Shown: positions 34,289 through 54,309 of the stretch, one piece after another
Layout of the letters: each line of letters opens with the position of its first letter
How positions within the stretch are numbered: position 1 is the stretch's first letter
Source of the DNA: Rhodanobacter humi
Lineage (GTDB): Bacteria > Pseudomonadota > Gammaproteobacteria > Xanthomonadales > Rhodanobacteraceae
Length of the DNA stretch: 64,000 nucleotides
Direction: 5' to 3'
NCBI RefSeq assembly: GCF_041107455.1
Contig: NZ_JBGBPY010000001.1
Location: 3,596,001-3,660,000, forward strand
Translations under genes and position numbers: made by a program
Notes under the pieces: model-generated
Seen by the model: the letters and a program-made list of their open reading frames with translations, nothing else
Database searches by the model: none
What the model was told of the DNA's origin: nothing

Positions 34289-34317
34289 TTGCAGCTTCAG
34301 ATTAATTTGTGTATGAT
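34289..34317 (+). promoter_or_regulatory. Promoter of the tetR gene, possibly leaderless
   Basis: TTGCAG (34289-34294), 17 bp, TATGAT (34312-34317). The expected transcription start is around 34324-34326, at or just before the ATG at 34327, which leaves no room for a ribosome-binding site. Confidence 0.55.
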
Positions 34318-34327
34318 GTACATCATA
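34312..34327. promoter_or_regulatory. Palindromic operator over the tetR promoter
   Basis: TATGAT, GTAC, ATCATA: a perfect 16-bp palindrome that covers the -10 box and reaches the first base of the start codon. The same half-sites with a 4-bp centre recur before the SDR gene, so this is probably the autoregulatory site of the TetR protein. Confidence 0.65.
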
Positions 34328-34908
34328 TGAGGAAGATCGCTGGCAAATCCAAAGAGGTCACGCACGAACGTATCGTGGAGGTTGCTGCGCGAGCAATTCG
34401 GCGTACGGGCTACGATGGCACCAGTGTCGCCGACATCATGAAGGAGGCTGGCCTTACCCACGGCGGTTTCTATGCGCACTTTCCTTCGCGCGAAGCGATG
34501 CTTGCCGAGGCGGCTGACCGCGCCGGTGCTGATGCCGTTACCGCGTCGTCCCGTGTCGCTGCATTGGCACCGCCTGAACACGCTTTGCAGTCGCTGGTGC
34601 AGGCCTATCTGTCCAAGGAGCACCTGGAGAGCGCGGAACTGGGCTGTCCGGTCGTTGCGCTCGGTTCGGAGATGCCGCGTCAAGCGCCCGAAGTACGTCG
34701 CGCAGCCACGCGGCGCATCAAGGAGATGATCGATGTCGTCGCCCGTCAGTCACCTGACTGGGGGCAGCCCGGTGCGCATGAGCGTGCACTCGTCACGGTG
34801 GCCACCATGGTCGGTGCCCTGCTCCTGGCACGAGCGGTCGACGAACCGAAACTGTCCGATGCGCTACGAAAAGCCGCGTTGAAGTATTTGTCTACTGCCG
34901 ACACCTGA
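34327..34908 (+). CDS. TetR/AcrR family regulator
   Basis: A 193-aa repressor. The N-terminal helix-turn-helix is clear (ERIVEVAARAIRRTGYDGTS, DIMKEAGLTHGGFYAHFPSRE, residues about 15-55). The C-terminal ligand/dimerisation region resembles the TetR_C subgroup that controls dehydrogenase genes (AELGCPVVALGSEMPRQAPEV). The ATG at 34327 was chosen as the first Met that leaves the usual short arm before the helix-turn-helix. It precedes three oxidoreductase genes on the same strand and probably represses them through the operator at 34938-34957. The ligand is unknown; an electrophile or aldehyde would suit the targets (inference). Confidence 0.9.
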   Translation: MRKIAGKSKEVTHERIVEVAARAIRRTGYDGTSVADIMKEAGLTHGGFYAHFPSREAMLAEAADRAGADAVTASSRVAALAPPEHALQSLVQAYLSKEHLESAELGCPVVALGSEMPRQAPEVRRAATRRIKEMIDVVARQSPDWGQPGAHERALVTVATMVGALLLARAVDEPKLSDALRKAALKYLSTADT

Positions 34909-34937
34909 TCGTGGTGGCGAATTTTCATTTGCAAACG

Positions 34938-34957
34938 AATATGATGACTATCATATT
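34938..34957. promoter_or_regulatory. Second TetR-type operator before the SDR gene
   Basis: AATATGAT, GACT, ATCATATT: perfect 8-bp arms around a 4-bp centre, the same TATGAT/ATCATA half-sites as the operator over the tetR start. A TTGCAA at 34929-34934 may be the -35 box, which would place the operator over the spacer and -10 region. Confidence 0.65.
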
Positions 34958-35052
34958 TGTACAACACAACTGGCGGCACCAATCCGTTTCGGCAAGCAGC
35001 GCCGTGCCATCGCCGCCACCCATACCATGAAGACTCACAGGCAGGTATCCCC

Positions 35053-35913
35053 ATGAAATCCAGGCAACCCATTGCGCTCGTCACGGGCGCATCGTCAGGC
35101 ATCGGCGAAGCGACCGCCGGGCAACTCGCCAAGGCCGGCTACAAGGTCTACGGCACCAGCCGGCGCGGTGCGCAATCAGGTCAGCGCGGGTTCGAGATGC
35201 TGGCGCTCGATGTGACTAGCGACGCCTCGGTCGAAGCAGCCGTCAACGCGTTGATCCATTACGAAGGCCGCATCGACCTGCTCGTGAACAACGCCGGCTT
35301 CGGCGTCGCGCCCGCCGCGGCGGAGGAGAGTTCGCTCGACCAAGCCCGCGCCATTTTCGATACCAACTTCTTCGGCATCGTCCGCATGACGCGCGCCGTG
35401 CTTCCGCACATGCGTCAGCAGCACAGCGGCCGCATCATCAATATCGGCTCCGTGCTGGGCTTCCTGCCGATGCCCTACATGGCGCTGTACTCCGCCACCA
35501 AGCACGCAGTCGCAGGCTATTCGGAAGCGCTCGACCATGAACTGCGCACCTTGGGCATTCATGTCTCCGTCGTCGAGCCTGCCTACATCAACACGCCGTT
35601 CGACGCGAACCTGATGAAACCAGACGCACCGCTCGACGTGTATCGCGGCATTTGCGGGGGTGTGGAGCGGCGGGTGAAAGAAGTACTCGTGGGCGCAGAC
35701 GGCCCAGAAGTGGTGGCCGAAATCGTGGTGAAAGCAGCCATGGCAACGAGCCCAGAAATTCGGTACGCCCCTGGACTCGCCAAGCGCATGCGCTTGCTAC
35801 GTCGGTTTGCACCAGCCAGCGTGTTGGATGCCGGCGTTCGGAAAGACCTACGGCTCGACACGTCGGCAACGATGCCACCGCGCGACGCAGCCGCCATTCC
35901 GCTCTCACGTTAA
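35053..35913 (+). CDS. Short-chain dehydrogenase/reductase
   Basis: A 286-aa classical SDR. It has the cofactor motif TGASSGIGEAT at about residues 12-22, NNAG, the catalytic Ser in INIGSVLGFLP and YSATK (Tyr and Lys). The Arg-rich SRRG after strand 2 points to NADP(H). Substrate unknown. The start ATG was taken over the open upstream frame because the SDR fold begins there. First gene of a likely three-gene operon under the TetR operator. Confidence 0.9.
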   Translation: MKSRQPIALVTGASSGIGEATAGQLAKAGYKVYGTSRRGAQSGQRGFEMLALDVTSDASVEAAVNALIHYEGRIDLLVNNAGFGVAPAAAEESSLDQARAIFDTNFFGIVRMTRAVLPHMRQQHSGRIINIGSVLGFLPMPYMALYSATKHAVAGYSEALDHELRTLGIHVSVVEPAYINTPFDANLMKPDAPLDVYRGICGGVERRVKEVLVGADGPEVVAEIVVKAAMATSPEIRYAPGLAKRMRLLRRFAPASVLDAGVRKDLRLDTSATMPPRDAAAIPLSR

Positions 35914-35935
35914 CGAGACCGGAGAAACAGACATC

Positions 35936-36937
35936 ATGAAAGCCTTCCTGCTCGATCGTTACGCAAAAAATGCCAATCTGCGGCTAGGCGACATGCCGGA
36001 GCCCATGCCGGGCGATGACGAGGTACTGGTGCAGATCCACGCCGCTGGCGTGAACTTGCTGGACTCCAAGATCAAGAGCGGCGAGTTCAAGCTCATCCTG
36101 CCGTACCACATGCCGCTCGTGCTCGGCCACGACCTCGCGGGTATGGTGGTTCGCGTTGGGTCACGCGCGCGGCGGTTCAAGGTCGGCGATGAGGTCTATG
36201 CCCGCGCGCCGGACTTCCACATCGGTAGCTTCGCCGAATCCATAGCAGTCAAGGAAAGTGCTCTGGCCCACAAGCCAAAGAGCCTGAGCATGGAGGAAGC
36301 CGCCGCCATCCCGCTGGTCGGCCTGACCGCCTGGCAGGCCCTCGTTGAAAAAGCGAAGCTGAAGAAGGGTCAGAAAGTCTTCATCCAGGCTGGTTCCGGT
36401 GGCGTGGGCACGTTTGCGATCCAGTTGGCGAAGCATCTGGGTGCGACCGTGGCGACGACTACCAGCACGGCCAATGTCGATTGGGTGAAACGCCTCGGCG
36501 CCGACGTCATCGTCGACTACAAGAAGGACAACTTCGAAACCATCCTGCGCGACTACGACGTGGTGCTCAACAGCCAGGATGGCAAGACGCTGGAAAAATC
36601 CCTGCGTATCCTGAAGCCTGGCGGCCAGCTCATTTCCATCTCCGGCCCACCCGATCCCGGTTTCGCAAAAGACATTGGCGCACCCGGCTTCGTGAAACTG
36701 ATCCTGCGCCTGTTGAGCTCCGGGACCCGGCGAAAAGCCAATGCCCTCGGGGTCGACTACGCCTTCCTTTTCATGAAAGCCAGCGGGAGTCAGCTGCATC
36801 AGATCACATCGCTCATCGACGCCGGTGCGATACGCCCGGTGGTGGACAAGATCTTTCCATTCGAATCGACCAACGAAGCCATCGCCTATGTCGAGAAGGG
36901 CCGCGCGAAGGGCAAGGTCGTCGTCAAGCTCAAATGA
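35936..36937 (+). CDS. Zinc-free quinone oxidoreductase-type MDR
   Basis: A 333-aa medium-chain oxidoreductase of the quinone reductase / zeta-crystallin type. It shows GVNLLDSKIKSG, GHDLAGMV, IPLVGLTAWQAL and the cofactor motif AGSGGVGTFAIQLAKHLGA. The cysteine ligands of zinc alcohol dehydrogenases are absent. Such enzymes reduce quinones or activated alkenes with NADPH. It starts 22 bp after the first SDR gene, with GGAGAAACAG before the ATG, so the two are cotranscribed. Confidence 0.9.
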   Translation: MKAFLLDRYAKNANLRLGDMPEPMPGDDEVLVQIHAAGVNLLDSKIKSGEFKLILPYHMPLVLGHDLAGMVVRVGSRARRFKVGDEVYARAPDFHIGSFAESIAVKESALAHKPKSLSMEEAAAIPLVGLTAWQALVEKAKLKKGQKVFIQAGSGGVGTFAIQLAKHLGATVATTTSTANVDWVKRLGADVIVDYKKDNFETILRDYDVVLNSQDGKTLEKSLRILKPGGQLISISGPPDPGFAKDIGAPGFVKLILRLLSSGTRRKANALGVDYAFLFMKASGSQLHQITSLIDAGAIRPVVDKIFPFESTNEAIAYVEKGRAKGKVVVKLK

Positions 36938-36967
36938 GCTTGGCTCCCCTCATTCCCGGAGTCTCCC

Positions 36968-37672
36968 ATGAAAGTTGAGAACGCTGTTGCCCTTGTCACT
37001 GGCGCCAATCGCGGCATCGGACTGGCATTCGCCCGCGAGCTGCTCGCCCGCGGTGCCCGCAAGGTCTACGCCGGTGCGCGCGACACGGCGACCATCACGC
37101 AAGCCGGTGTTCAAGCAGTGCGTCTTGACGTCAATCATCCGGACGATGTGACGGCGACTGCCGCGTTGGCATCGGATGTGACGCTGGTGATCAACAACGC
37201 CGGCATTGCCCAACCCGGTGGCTTTCTTCTGCCGGACAGCGAGAACGTTGCACGACGGCTCTTCGAGACGAACTTCTTCGCTGTGTTGCGCATGAGCAAG
37301 GCGTTTGCACCGATCCTCAAGGCCAACGGCGGCGGTGCCTTGCTCAATGTGCTGTCGGTCGCCTCGTGGGTGAATGGCGGCGAGTTGGCCGCCTATTCGG
37401 CTAGCAAGTCGGCCGCGTGGTCGCTCACGAACGCCTTACGCAACGAACTGGCAGCACAGAAAACGCAAGTGTTGGCGCTGCACATGGGCTACGTCGATAC
37501 GGATCTCACGCACGGATTCGATGTCCCGAAATCCAGTCCGGGGGAGATCGTCAAACGCGCGCTCGACGGACTCGAATCGGGCTTGGATGAGGTGCTGGCG
37601 GATGAGGTCACCGTGCAAGTGAAGCAGGGAATGACAGCGGCCCGGCCCAGTTACCTACCGCAGACCGCTTGA
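36968..37672 (+). CDS. Short-chain dehydrogenase/reductase, second
   Basis: A 234-aa SDR with TGANRGIGLAFA at residues 11-22, NNAG, a catalytic Ser in LSVASWVNGG and YSASKSA (Tyr-Lys). Shorter than the first SDR and not its close copy. Starts 30 bp after the quinone oxidoreductase gene. Substrate unknown. It ends the oxidoreductase cassette; the next gene is on the other strand. Confidence 0.9.
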   Translation: MKVENAVALVTGANRGIGLAFARELLARGARKVYAGARDTATITQAGVQAVRLDVNHPDDVTATAALASDVTLVINNAGIAQPGGFLLPDSENVARRLFETNFFAVLRMSKAFAPILKANGGGALLNVLSVASWVNGGELAAYSASKSAAWSLTNALRNELAAQKTQVLALHMGYVDTDLTHGFDVPKSSPGEIVKRALDGLESGLDEVLADEVTVQVKQGMTAARPSYLPQTA

Positions 37673-37775: not shown

Positions 37776-38939
37776 TCAGCCCAGCGCCGCCTCAATGGCA
37801 TCCAGCGCCGCCTCGATATTCTGCCGAGGCGTGCCGATGTTCATGCGCATGAAGCCGCTGCCGCCGGGGCCGAAGTCGCTGCCGGGGTTCAGGCCCAGCT
37901 TGCAGCGCTGCACGAAGAAATCGCGCAGCGCGGCGTCATCCATGCCCAGCGCGCGACAGTCCAGCCACAGCAGGTAGCCCGCCTCGGCCGGCTGCATGCG
38001 CAGCGCGGGCAGTCGCGCACGCAGGTTTTCGGCAACGAAGTCGCGCGTGCCGGCTAGGTAGCCGAGCAGGGCGCCCAGCCATGCGTCGCCGCTAGACCAT
38101 GCGGCTTCCGCCGCGGCGATCGCGAATGGATTGGCGCCGTCGAGATGCAGGTCGTCGACCTTGCGCGCCACCGCGGCATGCAGCTCCGGCCGCGATGCCA
38201 CCAGCACGGACAGTGCCAGGCTCTGCAGGTTGAAGCTCTTGCTCGGCGAGACTATCGAAATGATGCGGTCGTCCGCGCGGGCGAGCGTGGCCAGCGGGAT
38301 GTGGCGCGCGCCGGGCAGGGCGAGGTCGCCGTGCACTTCGTCGCTGATGATGGCGAGTTCGTGGCGGCGCGCGAGCTGCAGCAGTTCGGTCAGCTCGCCT
38401 TCGCTCCACACACGGCCCACCGGGTTGTGCGGATTGCACAGCAGCAGGGCGCGGGCGCCGTCCTTCGCACATTGCTCCAGCTGCGCGAGATCCATCGTGT
38501 AGCGACCGTCGCTTTCGCGCAGCGGGTTGAACACCAGCTTGCGGCCGCTGGCGCTGGTGGCGTGGAAGAAGCCGCCGTAGACCGGCGGCTGCACGATCAC
38601 CGCGTCGCCGGGTGCCGTCACCGCCTGCAGCGCGGCGGAGAGCGAGGCCAGCACGCCGTTGACCGGCAGGGTGGCCTCGCGTGCCAGCGCCCGGCGATGG
38701 CGCCGCGCGCACCAGCCGATCAGCGCATCGGACAGGCTGGCCGGGTATTGCGTGTAGCCGTAGATGGGATGTCGCGCGCGTTCCTGCAGCGCTTCGACCA
38801 CGCACGGCGGCGCGGCGAAATCCATGTCGGCGATCCACAGCGGCATGACATCGGCCGAGCCGAACTTCCGCACACGGCCGTCGAGCTTCGTCGCGTGGCT
38901 GCCGCGGCGGTCGATGGGCTGGTCGAAGTCGAAGCTCAT
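37776..38939 (-). CDS. PatB/MalY-like PLP C-S lyase (candidate OvoB)
   Basis: A 387-aa fold-type I PLP enzyme of the MalY/PatB group. Recognisable are MPLWIADMDFAAPP at the N-terminus, YGYTQYPASL, LLCNPHNPVGRVW, ISDEVHGDLAL and the PLP-lysine region SIVSPSKSFNLQSLALS. Most relatives are cystathionine beta-lyases. Here the gene directly follows ovoA on the same strand (133 bp), and ovothiol synthesis needs a PLP sulfoxide lyase (OvoB) to cleave the OvoA product. So OvoB is an attractive assignment by context; sequence alone cannot separate it from a general cystathionine beta-lyase. Confidence 0.85.
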   Translation of the reverse strand: MSFDFDQPIDRRGSHATKLDGRVRKFGSADVMPLWIADMDFAAPPCVVEALQERARHPIYGYTQYPASLSDALIGWCARRHRRALAREATLPVNGVLASLSAALQAVTAPGDAVIVQPPVYGGFFHATSASGRKLVFNPLRESDGRYTMDLAQLEQCAKDGARALLLCNPHNPVGRVWSEGELTELLQLARRHELAIISDEVHGDLALPGARHIPLATLARADDRIISIVSPSKSFNLQSLALSVLVASRPELHAAVARKVDDLHLDGANPFAIAAAEAAWSSGDAWLGALLGYLAGTRDFVAENLRARLPALRMQPAEAGYLLWLDCRALGMDDAALRDFFVQRCKLGLNPGSDFGPGGSGFMRMNIGTPRQNIEAALDAIEAALG

Positions 38940-39011
38940 GGGCGGCCACGCGCAACCTGCCTGGCGGCAGGTAGACCGGCTGGTGCGGAGCGGTGGGCTG
39001 TGGCGAGCCCG

Positions 39012-39050
39012 AACCCTCTCCCCCGGCCCCTCTCCCGGGGGGAGAGGGGA
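39012..39050. repeat. CCCTCTCCC-type intergenic palindrome
   Basis: ACCCTCTCCCCCGGCCCCTC with a complementary GGGGGGAGAGGGGA. It lies between the PatB-like gene and ovoA and belongs to a family found at least six times in the window. It could form a hairpin in the message between the two coding regions. Confidence 0.65.
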
Positions 39051-39072
39051 GCAGGGCGGCGGCCCGTTCGAC

Positions 39073-41223
39073 TCACGCCCGCCGCCGCCACAGCGTGACC
39101 TCGGACAAGGTGTGCTGGAACTTGCGGCGCGTCTCGCGTATCACGAACGGCACGGCGCGCGGTTCGCCCAGCCGCTCGAAGTGCGCGCCGAGGATCGCGT
39201 CGAGGCCGTCCAGCGTGGTGTAGCTCTCGCCGTCCTTCTTGAAGCCGCCCAGCCAGTCCGCGCGCGGCGTGTGCTCGACCAGCCAGGTGTAGGGCGAGGT
39301 GATCATCAGGACGCCGCCGGTGTTCAGGCGTTCGTGGATCGCTTCGAGGAACTGCGCCGGGTTGTAGAGACGGTCGATCAGGTTCGCGGCGAGGATGAAG
39401 TCGTAGCCGGTGAATTGCGGCTTGAGGTTGCAGGCATCGCCCTGGAAGAACTCCACCTTCGCGGCGGTATCCGCGAGGCCCAGTTCGGCGAGGTTGCGCG
39501 ACTTGTATTCGACCAGCTCGCCTTCGTCGGCCAGCAGGTAACGCAAGCTGTCGCCACGTGCCAGCGCCACGCCCTGCCCGATGAAGCGTGCGGAGAAGTC
39601 CACGCCGGTGACGCGGCCGAAGTGGCGCGCCAGTTCGAAGCTGGCGCGGCCGGAGGCGCAGCCCAGGTCCAGCGCCGTGCGCTTCGGCGCGTCGCCGATC
39701 GCGTCGATCGCCAGTTCCGCCAGCGCCTGCGAGAAGTTCGGCACGTCGAAATAGCTGTCGCCGTAATGGAACTCGGCGTATTCGCTGAGCAGCTTGTCGG
39801 TCTCGTAGTGCGAGGCCGGGGCCGGCTTGAGGTGCTTGGACACCACGTAGCGGAAACCGGCGTGCTGGAAGAAGTGGCGGCGGAAGGCGTAGCGCGAGGC
39901 GGGTTCGGCCTCGTTGCCGGTGGCGATCCACGAGCCGCCTTTCATCAGGTTGTGGCGACCGTCGAAGCAGGGCGTGGTGAAGTCGTCGTAGATCGGGTGC
40001 ACCGCAAACCCTTCGAACGGATAGGTCGGGGTTTCCGTCCACTGCCAGGCGTTGCCGGCGACATCGAAGAACTCGCCTTGCGCGAAATGGTTCACCGGGC
40101 ATGACGAGGCCCAGTGCGCGAGGTTGAGGTTGGCGTCCGGCGTTTCACCGTGCGGCGCACCGTGGCGGCTCTCGGCGTACAGGCGGTACCACTCGTCCTC
40201 GGTGGGCAGGCGCACCGGCTGGCCGCTGTGGGCCGATTTCCAGCGGCAGAACGCCTTGGCCTCGTGGTAGTTCACTTCCACCGGCCAGTCCCATGGCATC
40301 GGTACTTCCCCGGTCATCAGGCGCAGTTGCCAGCCCTCGGCCGAGCGACGCCAGAACGTGGGGTGGGCGGCCTTGGCGAATTCACGCCAGGCATTGCCTT
40401 CCTCTTCCCAATACCCGGACTGGGCGTAACCGCCGGCCTCGACGAAGGCCAGGAATTCCTGGTTGCTGACCAGGTGACGGCTGGCCTCGAAGGCCGGTAC
40501 TTCGGCTTCGTGGTGGCCGTATTCGTTGTCCCAGCCGTAGACGGCGCTGCCGGTCTCGCGACCCAGCGCCACGCTGCCGGCCGCAACCTTCACCAGCGTG
40601 TTGTCCGGTGCTACGCCGGTCTGCGTGCATGGCTGCCATGCGGGGTGCGGCTTCACGTAGGCCAGCTTGTGCTGGCGGACCAGCACCGAGGAGGTTTCCA
40701 GGTGGATGCGCTCATGCTCGATGCCCATGACGATCGCCCACCACGGGTTGTCCCAGCTGATGGGGAGCTCCAGCGGCGCCTCGGCGATCAGGCGCAGCAC
40801 CAGCGCGCGCACCTTGTCGCGGTAGGCCTGCACCTCGGCCACGCTGGGCCACTCGTAGTGCGCATCGTTGAGGTCGTCCCAACCCATCTCGTCCACGCCC
40901 ACCGCAAACACGGATTCCAGGTACGGGTCGACGCGCTCCCCGATCATCCGCGTCAGCAGCAGCTTGTTGACGAAGAACGTCGCGGTATGGCCGTAGTAGA
41001 AGATCAGCGGGTGGCGCAGCGTGATCGACGGCTCGTACCAGGCCGCATCGACGGCCAGTGTCTGGAACAGCGATTCGTAGCGGTCGAAGGTGCTGGTGAA
41101 GTACTCGCGCAGCACCGCGCGCATGCGTGCGGGATCGGTTTCGTGAAGGTTCGGGCTGCGCGGCAGCGGCGTGGTGGCGGCGTCGGTGCGGCGGCCGGGT
41201 TCGGCGAGCGTGGAAGCGTTCAA
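39073..41223 (-). CDS. ovoA: 5-histidylcysteine sulfoxide synthase / methyltransferase OvoA
   Basis: A 716-aa three-part enzyme. An N-terminal DinB-like part supplies His79 (YYGHTATFFVNK) and HERIHLE (His170, His174), the expected iron ligands. A formylglycine-generating-enzyme fold follows (YGWDNEYGHHEAEVPAFEAS, RLPTEDEWYRLYAESR, GNAWQWTETP, MKGGSW). A C-terminal SAM methyltransferase domain starts near residue 490 (ALDLGCASGRASFELA at about 517). This is the OvoA layout rather than EgtB, which lacks the methyltransferase part. OvoA joins cysteine and histidine oxidatively, and its methyltransferase later methylates 4-mercaptohistidine to ovothiol A. The start is TTG at 41223, with AGAGG seven bases upstream; the resulting length fits the family. 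Confidence 0.9.
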   Translation of the reverse strand: MNASTLAEPGRRTDAATTPLPRSPNLHETDPARMRAVLREYFTSTFDRYESLFQTLAVDAAWYEPSITLRHPLIFYYGHTATFFVNKLLLTRMIGERVDPYLESVFAVGVDEMGWDDLNDAHYEWPSVAEVQAYRDKVRALVLRLIAEAPLELPISWDNPWWAIVMGIEHERIHLETSSVLVRQHKLAYVKPHPAWQPCTQTGVAPDNTLVKVAAGSVALGRETGSAVYGWDNEYGHHEAEVPAFEASRHLVSNQEFLAFVEAGGYAQSGYWEEEGNAWREFAKAAHPTFWRRSAEGWQLRLMTGEVPMPWDWPVEVNYHEAKAFCRWKSAHSGQPVRLPTEDEWYRLYAESRHGAPHGETPDANLNLAHWASSCPVNHFAQGEFFDVAGNAWQWTETPTYPFEGFAVHPIYDDFTTPCFDGRHNLMKGGSWIATGNEAEPASRYAFRRHFFQHAGFRYVVSKHLKPAPASHYETDKLLSEYAEFHYGDSYFDVPNFSQALAELAIDAIGDAPKRTALDLGCASGRASFELARHFGRVTGVDFSARFIGQGVALARGDSLRYLLADEGELVEYKSRNLAELGLADTAAKVEFFQGDACNLKPQFTGYDFILAANLIDRLYNPAQFLEAIHERLNTGGVLMITSPYTWLVEHTPRADWLGGFKKDGESYTTLDGLDAILGAHFERLGEPRAVPFVIRETRRKFQHTLSEVTLWRRRA

Positions 41224-41377: not shown

Positions 41378-41403
41378 AAAAAGCCCCGCGCATGGCGGGG
41401 CTT
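41378..41403 (-). terminator. Intrinsic terminator after gcvP
   Basis: Read on the minus strand: AAGCCCCGC, CATGC, GCGGGGCTTTTTG. It lies ~125 bp downstream of the gcvP stop and before ovoA, so the two genes are likely separate transcripts. Confidence 0.75.
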
Positions 41404-41416
41404 GCAGTGTCGAGAG

Positions 41417-41518
41417 CCCCTCTCCCGCTTGCGGGAGAGGGGTTGGGGAGAGGGCATGCTCATCGTGCGAAAAGCTGCCCTCTCCCCCGGCCCCTCTCCC
41501 ATGAATGGGAGAGGGGAG
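41417..41518. repeat. Double CCCTCTCCC-type palindrome
   Basis: Two hairpins, CCCCTCTCCCGCTTGCGGGA... and CCCCTCTCCCATGAATGGGA..., head to tail with linking GGTTGGGGAGAGGGCATGCT. They fill the space between the gcvP stop and its terminator. Confidence 0.75.
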
Positions 41519-41526
41519 TAGAGCGC

Positions 41527-44448
<2,922 letters not shown>

Positions 44449-44493
44449 GGCAGGGGCGTCCGAAATCAACGTGCGAGCCGCACGCGGGGCGCC

Positions 44494-46392: not shown

Positions 46393-46468
46393 GCCCCTCT
46401 CCCTGCGGGAGAGGGGCTGCGGTGAGGGTTCGGGCGAAACATGAGCTTGAGAACCGAACCCTCATCCG
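46393..46468. repeat. CCCTCTCCC-type palindrome with GGTTCGGG arm
   Basis: CCCCTCTCCCTGCGGGAGAGG followed by GGTGAGGGTTCGGG and a complementary AACCGAACCCTCATCC. Starts 1 bp after the VOC gene stop and may serve as its transcription end. Confidence 0.65.
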
Positions 46469-54194: not shown

Positions 54195-54309
54195 TTCCTT
54201 CTCCCGCCGGGAGAAGGTGGCCCAAAGGGCCGGATGAGGGTTCGGGCGTGACGAAACGCTTCGCCACGCCCGAACCCTCACCCCAACCCCTCTCCCAAGG
54301 GGAGAGGGG
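54195..54309. repeat. Paired palindromes between pstS and pstC
   Basis: CTTCTCCCGCCGGGAGAAGG, then a long inverted repeat around GGATGAGGGTTCGGGCGTG and its complement CACGCCCGAACCCTCA, then CCCCTCTCCCAAGGGGAGAG. This is where pst operons often process the mRNA so that the abundant binding protein is made in excess; the hairpins could stabilise the pstS 3' end. Confidence 0.8.

Follow-up and report, generated by a model that had tools for sequence, protein, structure and literature searches.

A probable complete ovothiol A pathway formed by ovoA and an adjoining PatB-family lyase gene in Rhodanobacter humi

Does the pyridoxal phosphate (PLP)-dependent enzyme encoded next to ovoA in Rhodanobacter humi complete the synthesis of the antioxidant ovothiol A, or is it a housekeeping lyase that happens to lie there? 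The question is raised by a stretch of 64,000 nucleotides (contig NZ_JBGBPY010000001.1, positions 3,596,001 to 3,660,000; hereafter the window) from a genome of 4.15 Mb in two contigs. On the minus strand of the window, ovoA (39073-41223) is followed by a PatB-family gene (37776-38939), the ovoB candidate, which a sequence-only reading had taken for the lyase OvoB. We conclude that the two genes very likely constitute a complete two-gene ovothiol A pathway. The N-terminal non-haem iron half of OvoA would couple the sulfur of cysteine to C5 of histidine to give 5-histidylcysteine sulfoxide; the PatB-type lyase would strip off the carbon part of cysteine as pyruvate and ammonia, leaving 5-thiohistidine; and the C-terminal methyltransferase of OvoA, with S-adenosylmethionine, would methylate an imidazole nitrogen to yield ovothiol A. 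What the sequences show directly is the two genes, their families, their conserved residues, their conserved adjacency and a probably shared history; the three reactions are predicted from those of characterised relatives.

The 716-residue OvoA is read from a TTG start, 5' of which a GAGAGG stretch forms a possible ribosome site. The N-terminal 5-histidylcysteine sulfoxide synthase half (39844-41157, minus strand; residues 23-460) matches TIGR04344 with 678 bits against a cut-off of 400, and the fused 5-thiohistidine N-methyltransferase half (39082-39807, minus strand; residues 473-714) is intact, with 340 bits on TIGR04345, twice the cut-off of 170, and a match to OvoM 9bxl (E 2.5e-74). The Pfam domains found are DinB_2 and FGE-sulfatase, both in the synthase half, and a methyltransferase. 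The closest solved structure is the OvoA structure 8khq (E 3.2e-269), which aligns over residues 25-714 although its position in the OvoA tree is remote (end branch 0.92). His79, His170, His174 and Tyr412 align with His71, His162, His166 and Tyr406 of 8khq; in an alignment of 67 rows, from which sequences below 600 bits or 560 residues had been dropped, His79 is kept in all 66 rows with a letter at that position, and the other three in 67/67. We take the three histidines to be the iron ligands and Tyr412 to be the active-site tyrosine. These results agree with the domain layout and the iron-site histidines that had been read from the letters. EgtB and SenA were considered as alternative identities of the protein and rejected, since it scores 175 bits on the EgtB model (cut-off 360) and 178 bits on the SenA model (cut-off 420).

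The 387-residue product of the second gene reaches 477 bits on TIGR04350, "PatB family C-S lyase" (cut-off 340), and is the only protein over that cut-off in the genome; a PatB-type PLP gene on the strand of ovoA and 133 bp beyond its end (gap 38940-39072) is thus borne out. Asp200, Lys234 and Arg365 are invariant in the alignment, Lys234 presumably being the lysine that binds PLP, and the fold match agrees with the PatB/MalY family. Among the matches listed, Rhodanobacter sp. C06 supplies the nearest named relative, at 87% identity.

The evidence that ties this lyase to OvoA comes from the genus. Among 15 genomes, OvoA is over the cut-off in 12 and PatB in 11, and in every one of these 11 the PatB gene directly follows ovoA, on the same strand. 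The three ovoA-less genomes (G001, G007, which is 85% complete, and G013) have no PatB over the cut-off. In G011, the sole genome with ovoA and no PatB, ovoA is truncated by the contig end at 5449. The association of the two genes has a Fisher p of 0.009 on small numbers, and Fisher tests here treat related genomes as independent. Many of the compared genomes are incomplete metagenome-assembled genomes (MAGs), and absences therefore weigh less than presences. Gene order was compared across 16 loci, several of them from the same genomes. The order gcvP-ovoA-ovoB-aminopeptidase-like gene, the last named by reading and not by family test, is found in L005-L008, L210, L211, L214 and L215, and gcvP-ovoA-ovoB extends to the locus end in L004; gcvP is not nearby in L009/L213, and L010/L212 carry ovoA-ovoB only. 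Three stretches from ovoA-less genomes (L207-L209) show gcvP only. Within the genus, no PatB gene was found at this place where ovoA is missing, and the census of PatB genes beside and away from ovoA that the sequence-only reading had proposed comes out in favour of OvoB.

The pairing extends well beyond Rhodanobacter. The 80 best of at least 567 PatB relatives, picked by similarity to the window protein, were examined together with their flanks; the seven named Rhodanobacter loci among them (L004-L010) probably all come from genomes of the genus census, four being judged so by equal ovoA-ovoB gaps. ovoA lies in the fetched flank of 54/80, within 361 bp in 53 of them and at 4.2 kb in L014. With start codons taken nearest to the alignment start, 36 pairs overlap by 4 bp. 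Genera far from Rhodanobacter also have the pairing, in many cases with overlapping genes. Together with the adjacency in the genus, this recurrence argues for the PLP gene being OvoB. In the PatB tree of 90 rows, the window protein and all 80 relatives form one clade of 81 rows (99/99). The label "beside ovoA" requires 8 changes on this tree versus 28.0 in shuffles; the linkage is therefore clustered, with several gains or losses. A common history of the two genes is probable, since Rhodanobacter joins Cellvibrionaceae-type sequences in the OvoA tree (100/100) and again in the PatB tree (100/98). A side observation in the same set is an MsrA-like open reading frame, named by motif only, which is seen repeatedly in the vicinity of PatB, in 7 Nitrotoga-type loci.

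Several observations weigh against OvoB, and most of them bear on the strongest alternative, namely a housekeeping cystathionine beta-lyase encoded beside ovoA by chance, with ovothiol synthesis completed by another lyase. The nearest solved relative of the window lyase is PatB of Bacillus subtilis (6qp3, 40% identity), which was deposited as a cystathionine beta-lyase, whereas the window gene sits in an ovothiol context; and a passage of a 2025 paper terms OvoB itself a broad-specificity lyase (PMC12631010). The solved OvoB 5z0q, 39% identical to the window lyase, falls outside the 81-row clade, on long branches that leave its placement unsure. OvoB is a functional name, and this mismatch therefore counts against orthology, not against function. 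Eight other genomes of the family carry OvoA and no PatB match at E<=1e-60. Lastly, of the 26 genomes whose close PatB lies away from ovoA, 24 lack an OvoA over the cut-off (two have one elsewhere); 15 have EgtB over the cut-off, 22 an EgtB-type match at E<=1e-60, and three (G018, G022 and G033) neither this nor OvoA over the cut-off. Two Marinobacter genomes with PatB away from ovoA encode the selenoneine synthase SenA over its cut-off (L152:1024-2481 and L155:1489-2823).

A housekeeping role for PatB in the genus is nevertheless rejected, because the three ovoA-less genomes have none over the cut-off, which also speaks against cystathionine as the physiological substrate. The recurrence of ovoA beside PatB in distant genera argues in the same direction, and two strong PF01053 enzymes elsewhere in the genome are candidates for cystathionine-type chemistry. 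We therefore regard a chance neighbour as improbable. Still less probable is a pair that makes 5-thiohistidine or another derivative instead of ovothiol A, or an OvoA that is mainly a thiol oxygenase: N-acetylation of 5-thiohistidine is described for other bacteria in a passage of PMC12631010 and a reference title mentions thiol-oxygenase activity of an OvoA, but the methyltransferase half is intact here and no acetyltransferase is present among the four family-tested neighbours (gcvP and the short-chain dehydrogenase, quinone-oxidoreductase-like and TetR-like genes).

With OvoB as the preferred identity, the relatives without ovoA call for a qualification. The lyase family is not ovothiol-specific, because its members occur in OvoA-less genomes, five of them near egtB (L032, L033, L044, L061 and L069); the remaining 21 of the 80 best relatives have neither ovoA nor egtB in the flank. 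EgtB and EgtD are confirmed by NCBIfam in L032, L033, L044 and L069, and EgtB is confirmed for the genome of L061. These ergothioneine clusters, mostly from Nitrosomonadales and related MAGs, thus share with the window a PatB of the same clade and differ in the synthase, EgtB in place of OvoA. We count them in favour of OvoB, since the ergothioneine pathway likewise needs a histidine-sulfoxide lyase.

A census of 197 genomes of the family gives a related pattern. OvoA is over the cut-off in 20, PatB in 17 and EgtB in 123, a count that leaves out G082, G156, G195 and G215 (below the 360-bit cut-off; G156 by bits, the others judged by E-value). EgtB occurs in none of the 20 OvoA genomes versus 123/177 of the others (Fisher 5e-10, with genomes as independent), and genera g1, g24 and g25 each hold OvoA and EgtB types, in different species. 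A literature word search did not find the phrase "mutually exclusive" among the matches listed. All 17 PatB genomes have OvoA or EgtB, versus 143/197 overall (one-sided p = 0.003): 11 of them, each belonging to the genus of the window, combine PatB with OvoA, and the other six encode a PatB about 36% identical to that of the window, and EgtB. Two g26 genomes (L191 from G082 and L192 from G195) carry a divergent synthase whose OvoA score is about 240 bits (cut-off 400) and whose E on EgtB is about 1e-66 to 1e-69, and which apparently belongs to neither family.

The PatB-less OvoA loci of the family were compared in the same way. Seven OvoAs from g25 stand apart from that of Rhodanobacter in the tree, while the OvoA of G201 (g24) lies inside the Rhodanobacter group, on a contig that ends about 1.4 kb downstream. 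No other PLP lyase adjoins ovoA in L183, L184, L185, L186 or L188. In these five of the eight PatB-less loci (five of the seven from g25), a gene of the ADP-ribosylglycohydrolase family directly follows ovoA (L184:7763-8845, the one copy tested with Pfam). A Nitrosomonas locus has a copy with 65% identity about 1.6 kb beyond ovoB (L065:8743-9822), and the gene is possibly a new ovothiol-linked one. A filter on third-codon-position GC content (GC3) was applied for gene picking in four GC-rich loci. In the G201 locus (L190), the next gene after ovoA that passes it encodes an alcohol dehydrogenase, and a methionine sulfoxide reductase gene (L190:4498-5115; PMSR, 187 bits) stands just before ovoA.

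Returning to the window, transcription on the minus strand runs through gcvP (41527-44469), ovoA and the PatB-family gene. A terminator-like hairpin between gcvP and ovoA (41381-41403, minus strand) suggests that ovoA-ovoB forms a transcription unit of its own, although such sites are weak evidence in this region (2 found vs 1.9 expected); the same scan gave no terminator-like site in the ovoA-ovoB gap. That gap holds a palindrome (39027-39049, no strand assigned), CCCCTCTCCC...GGGAGAGGGG, with further copies at 41417-41442, 41491-41516, 46394-46416 and 54287-54309. Five copies were observed in the window and none is expected by chance; the first three are intergenic, and the element looks like a repetitive extragenic palindromic (REP)-type sequence. 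The stretch 34309-37672, between ovoB and the aminopeptidase-like gene, holds two short-chain-dehydrogenase-like genes, one of them family-tested, together with a TetR-like regulator and a quinone-oxidoreductase-like gene; comparison with the 16 related loci gave no match to any of these.

The OvoA and OvoB activities were established in Erwinia tasmaniensis, according to a passage of a review (PMC9103826), and the same three steps are stated in a passage of the 2025 paper (PMC12631010); the pathway itself is therefore not new. The Erwinia system and the window have the three predicted activities in common, namely a synthase fused to a methyltransferase and a C-S lyase that uses PLP. They differ in the PatB clade of the lyase, which in the window is not that of 5z0q; we infer 5z0q to be the Erwinia OvoB from its PDB title and the review passage taken together, no single record stating it. 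A literature word search found no paper that combines "ovothiol" and "Rhodanobacter". New here are the host genus, the PatB lineage other than that of 5z0q, the connection of this lineage with ergothioneine genes elsewhere among bacteria and, within the family, the either-or occurrence of OvoA and EgtB.

These findings suggest that enzymes called OvoB come from more than one lineage of PatB, a point of consequence since genes of this kind get named cystathionine beta-lyase. Going further, we see an even chance that this PatB clade arose by a second, independent recruitment of histidine-sulfoxide lyases and acts in two pathways, ovothiol synthesis alongside ovoA and ergothioneine synthesis alongside egtB-egtD, and that species of the family hold one pathway, never both, and have switched between them repeatedly. 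A passage of PMC12631010 states that the benefit of ovothiol is little understood, and the alternative occurrence of OvoA and EgtB within one family offers pairs of close relatives in which the role of each thiol can be asked.
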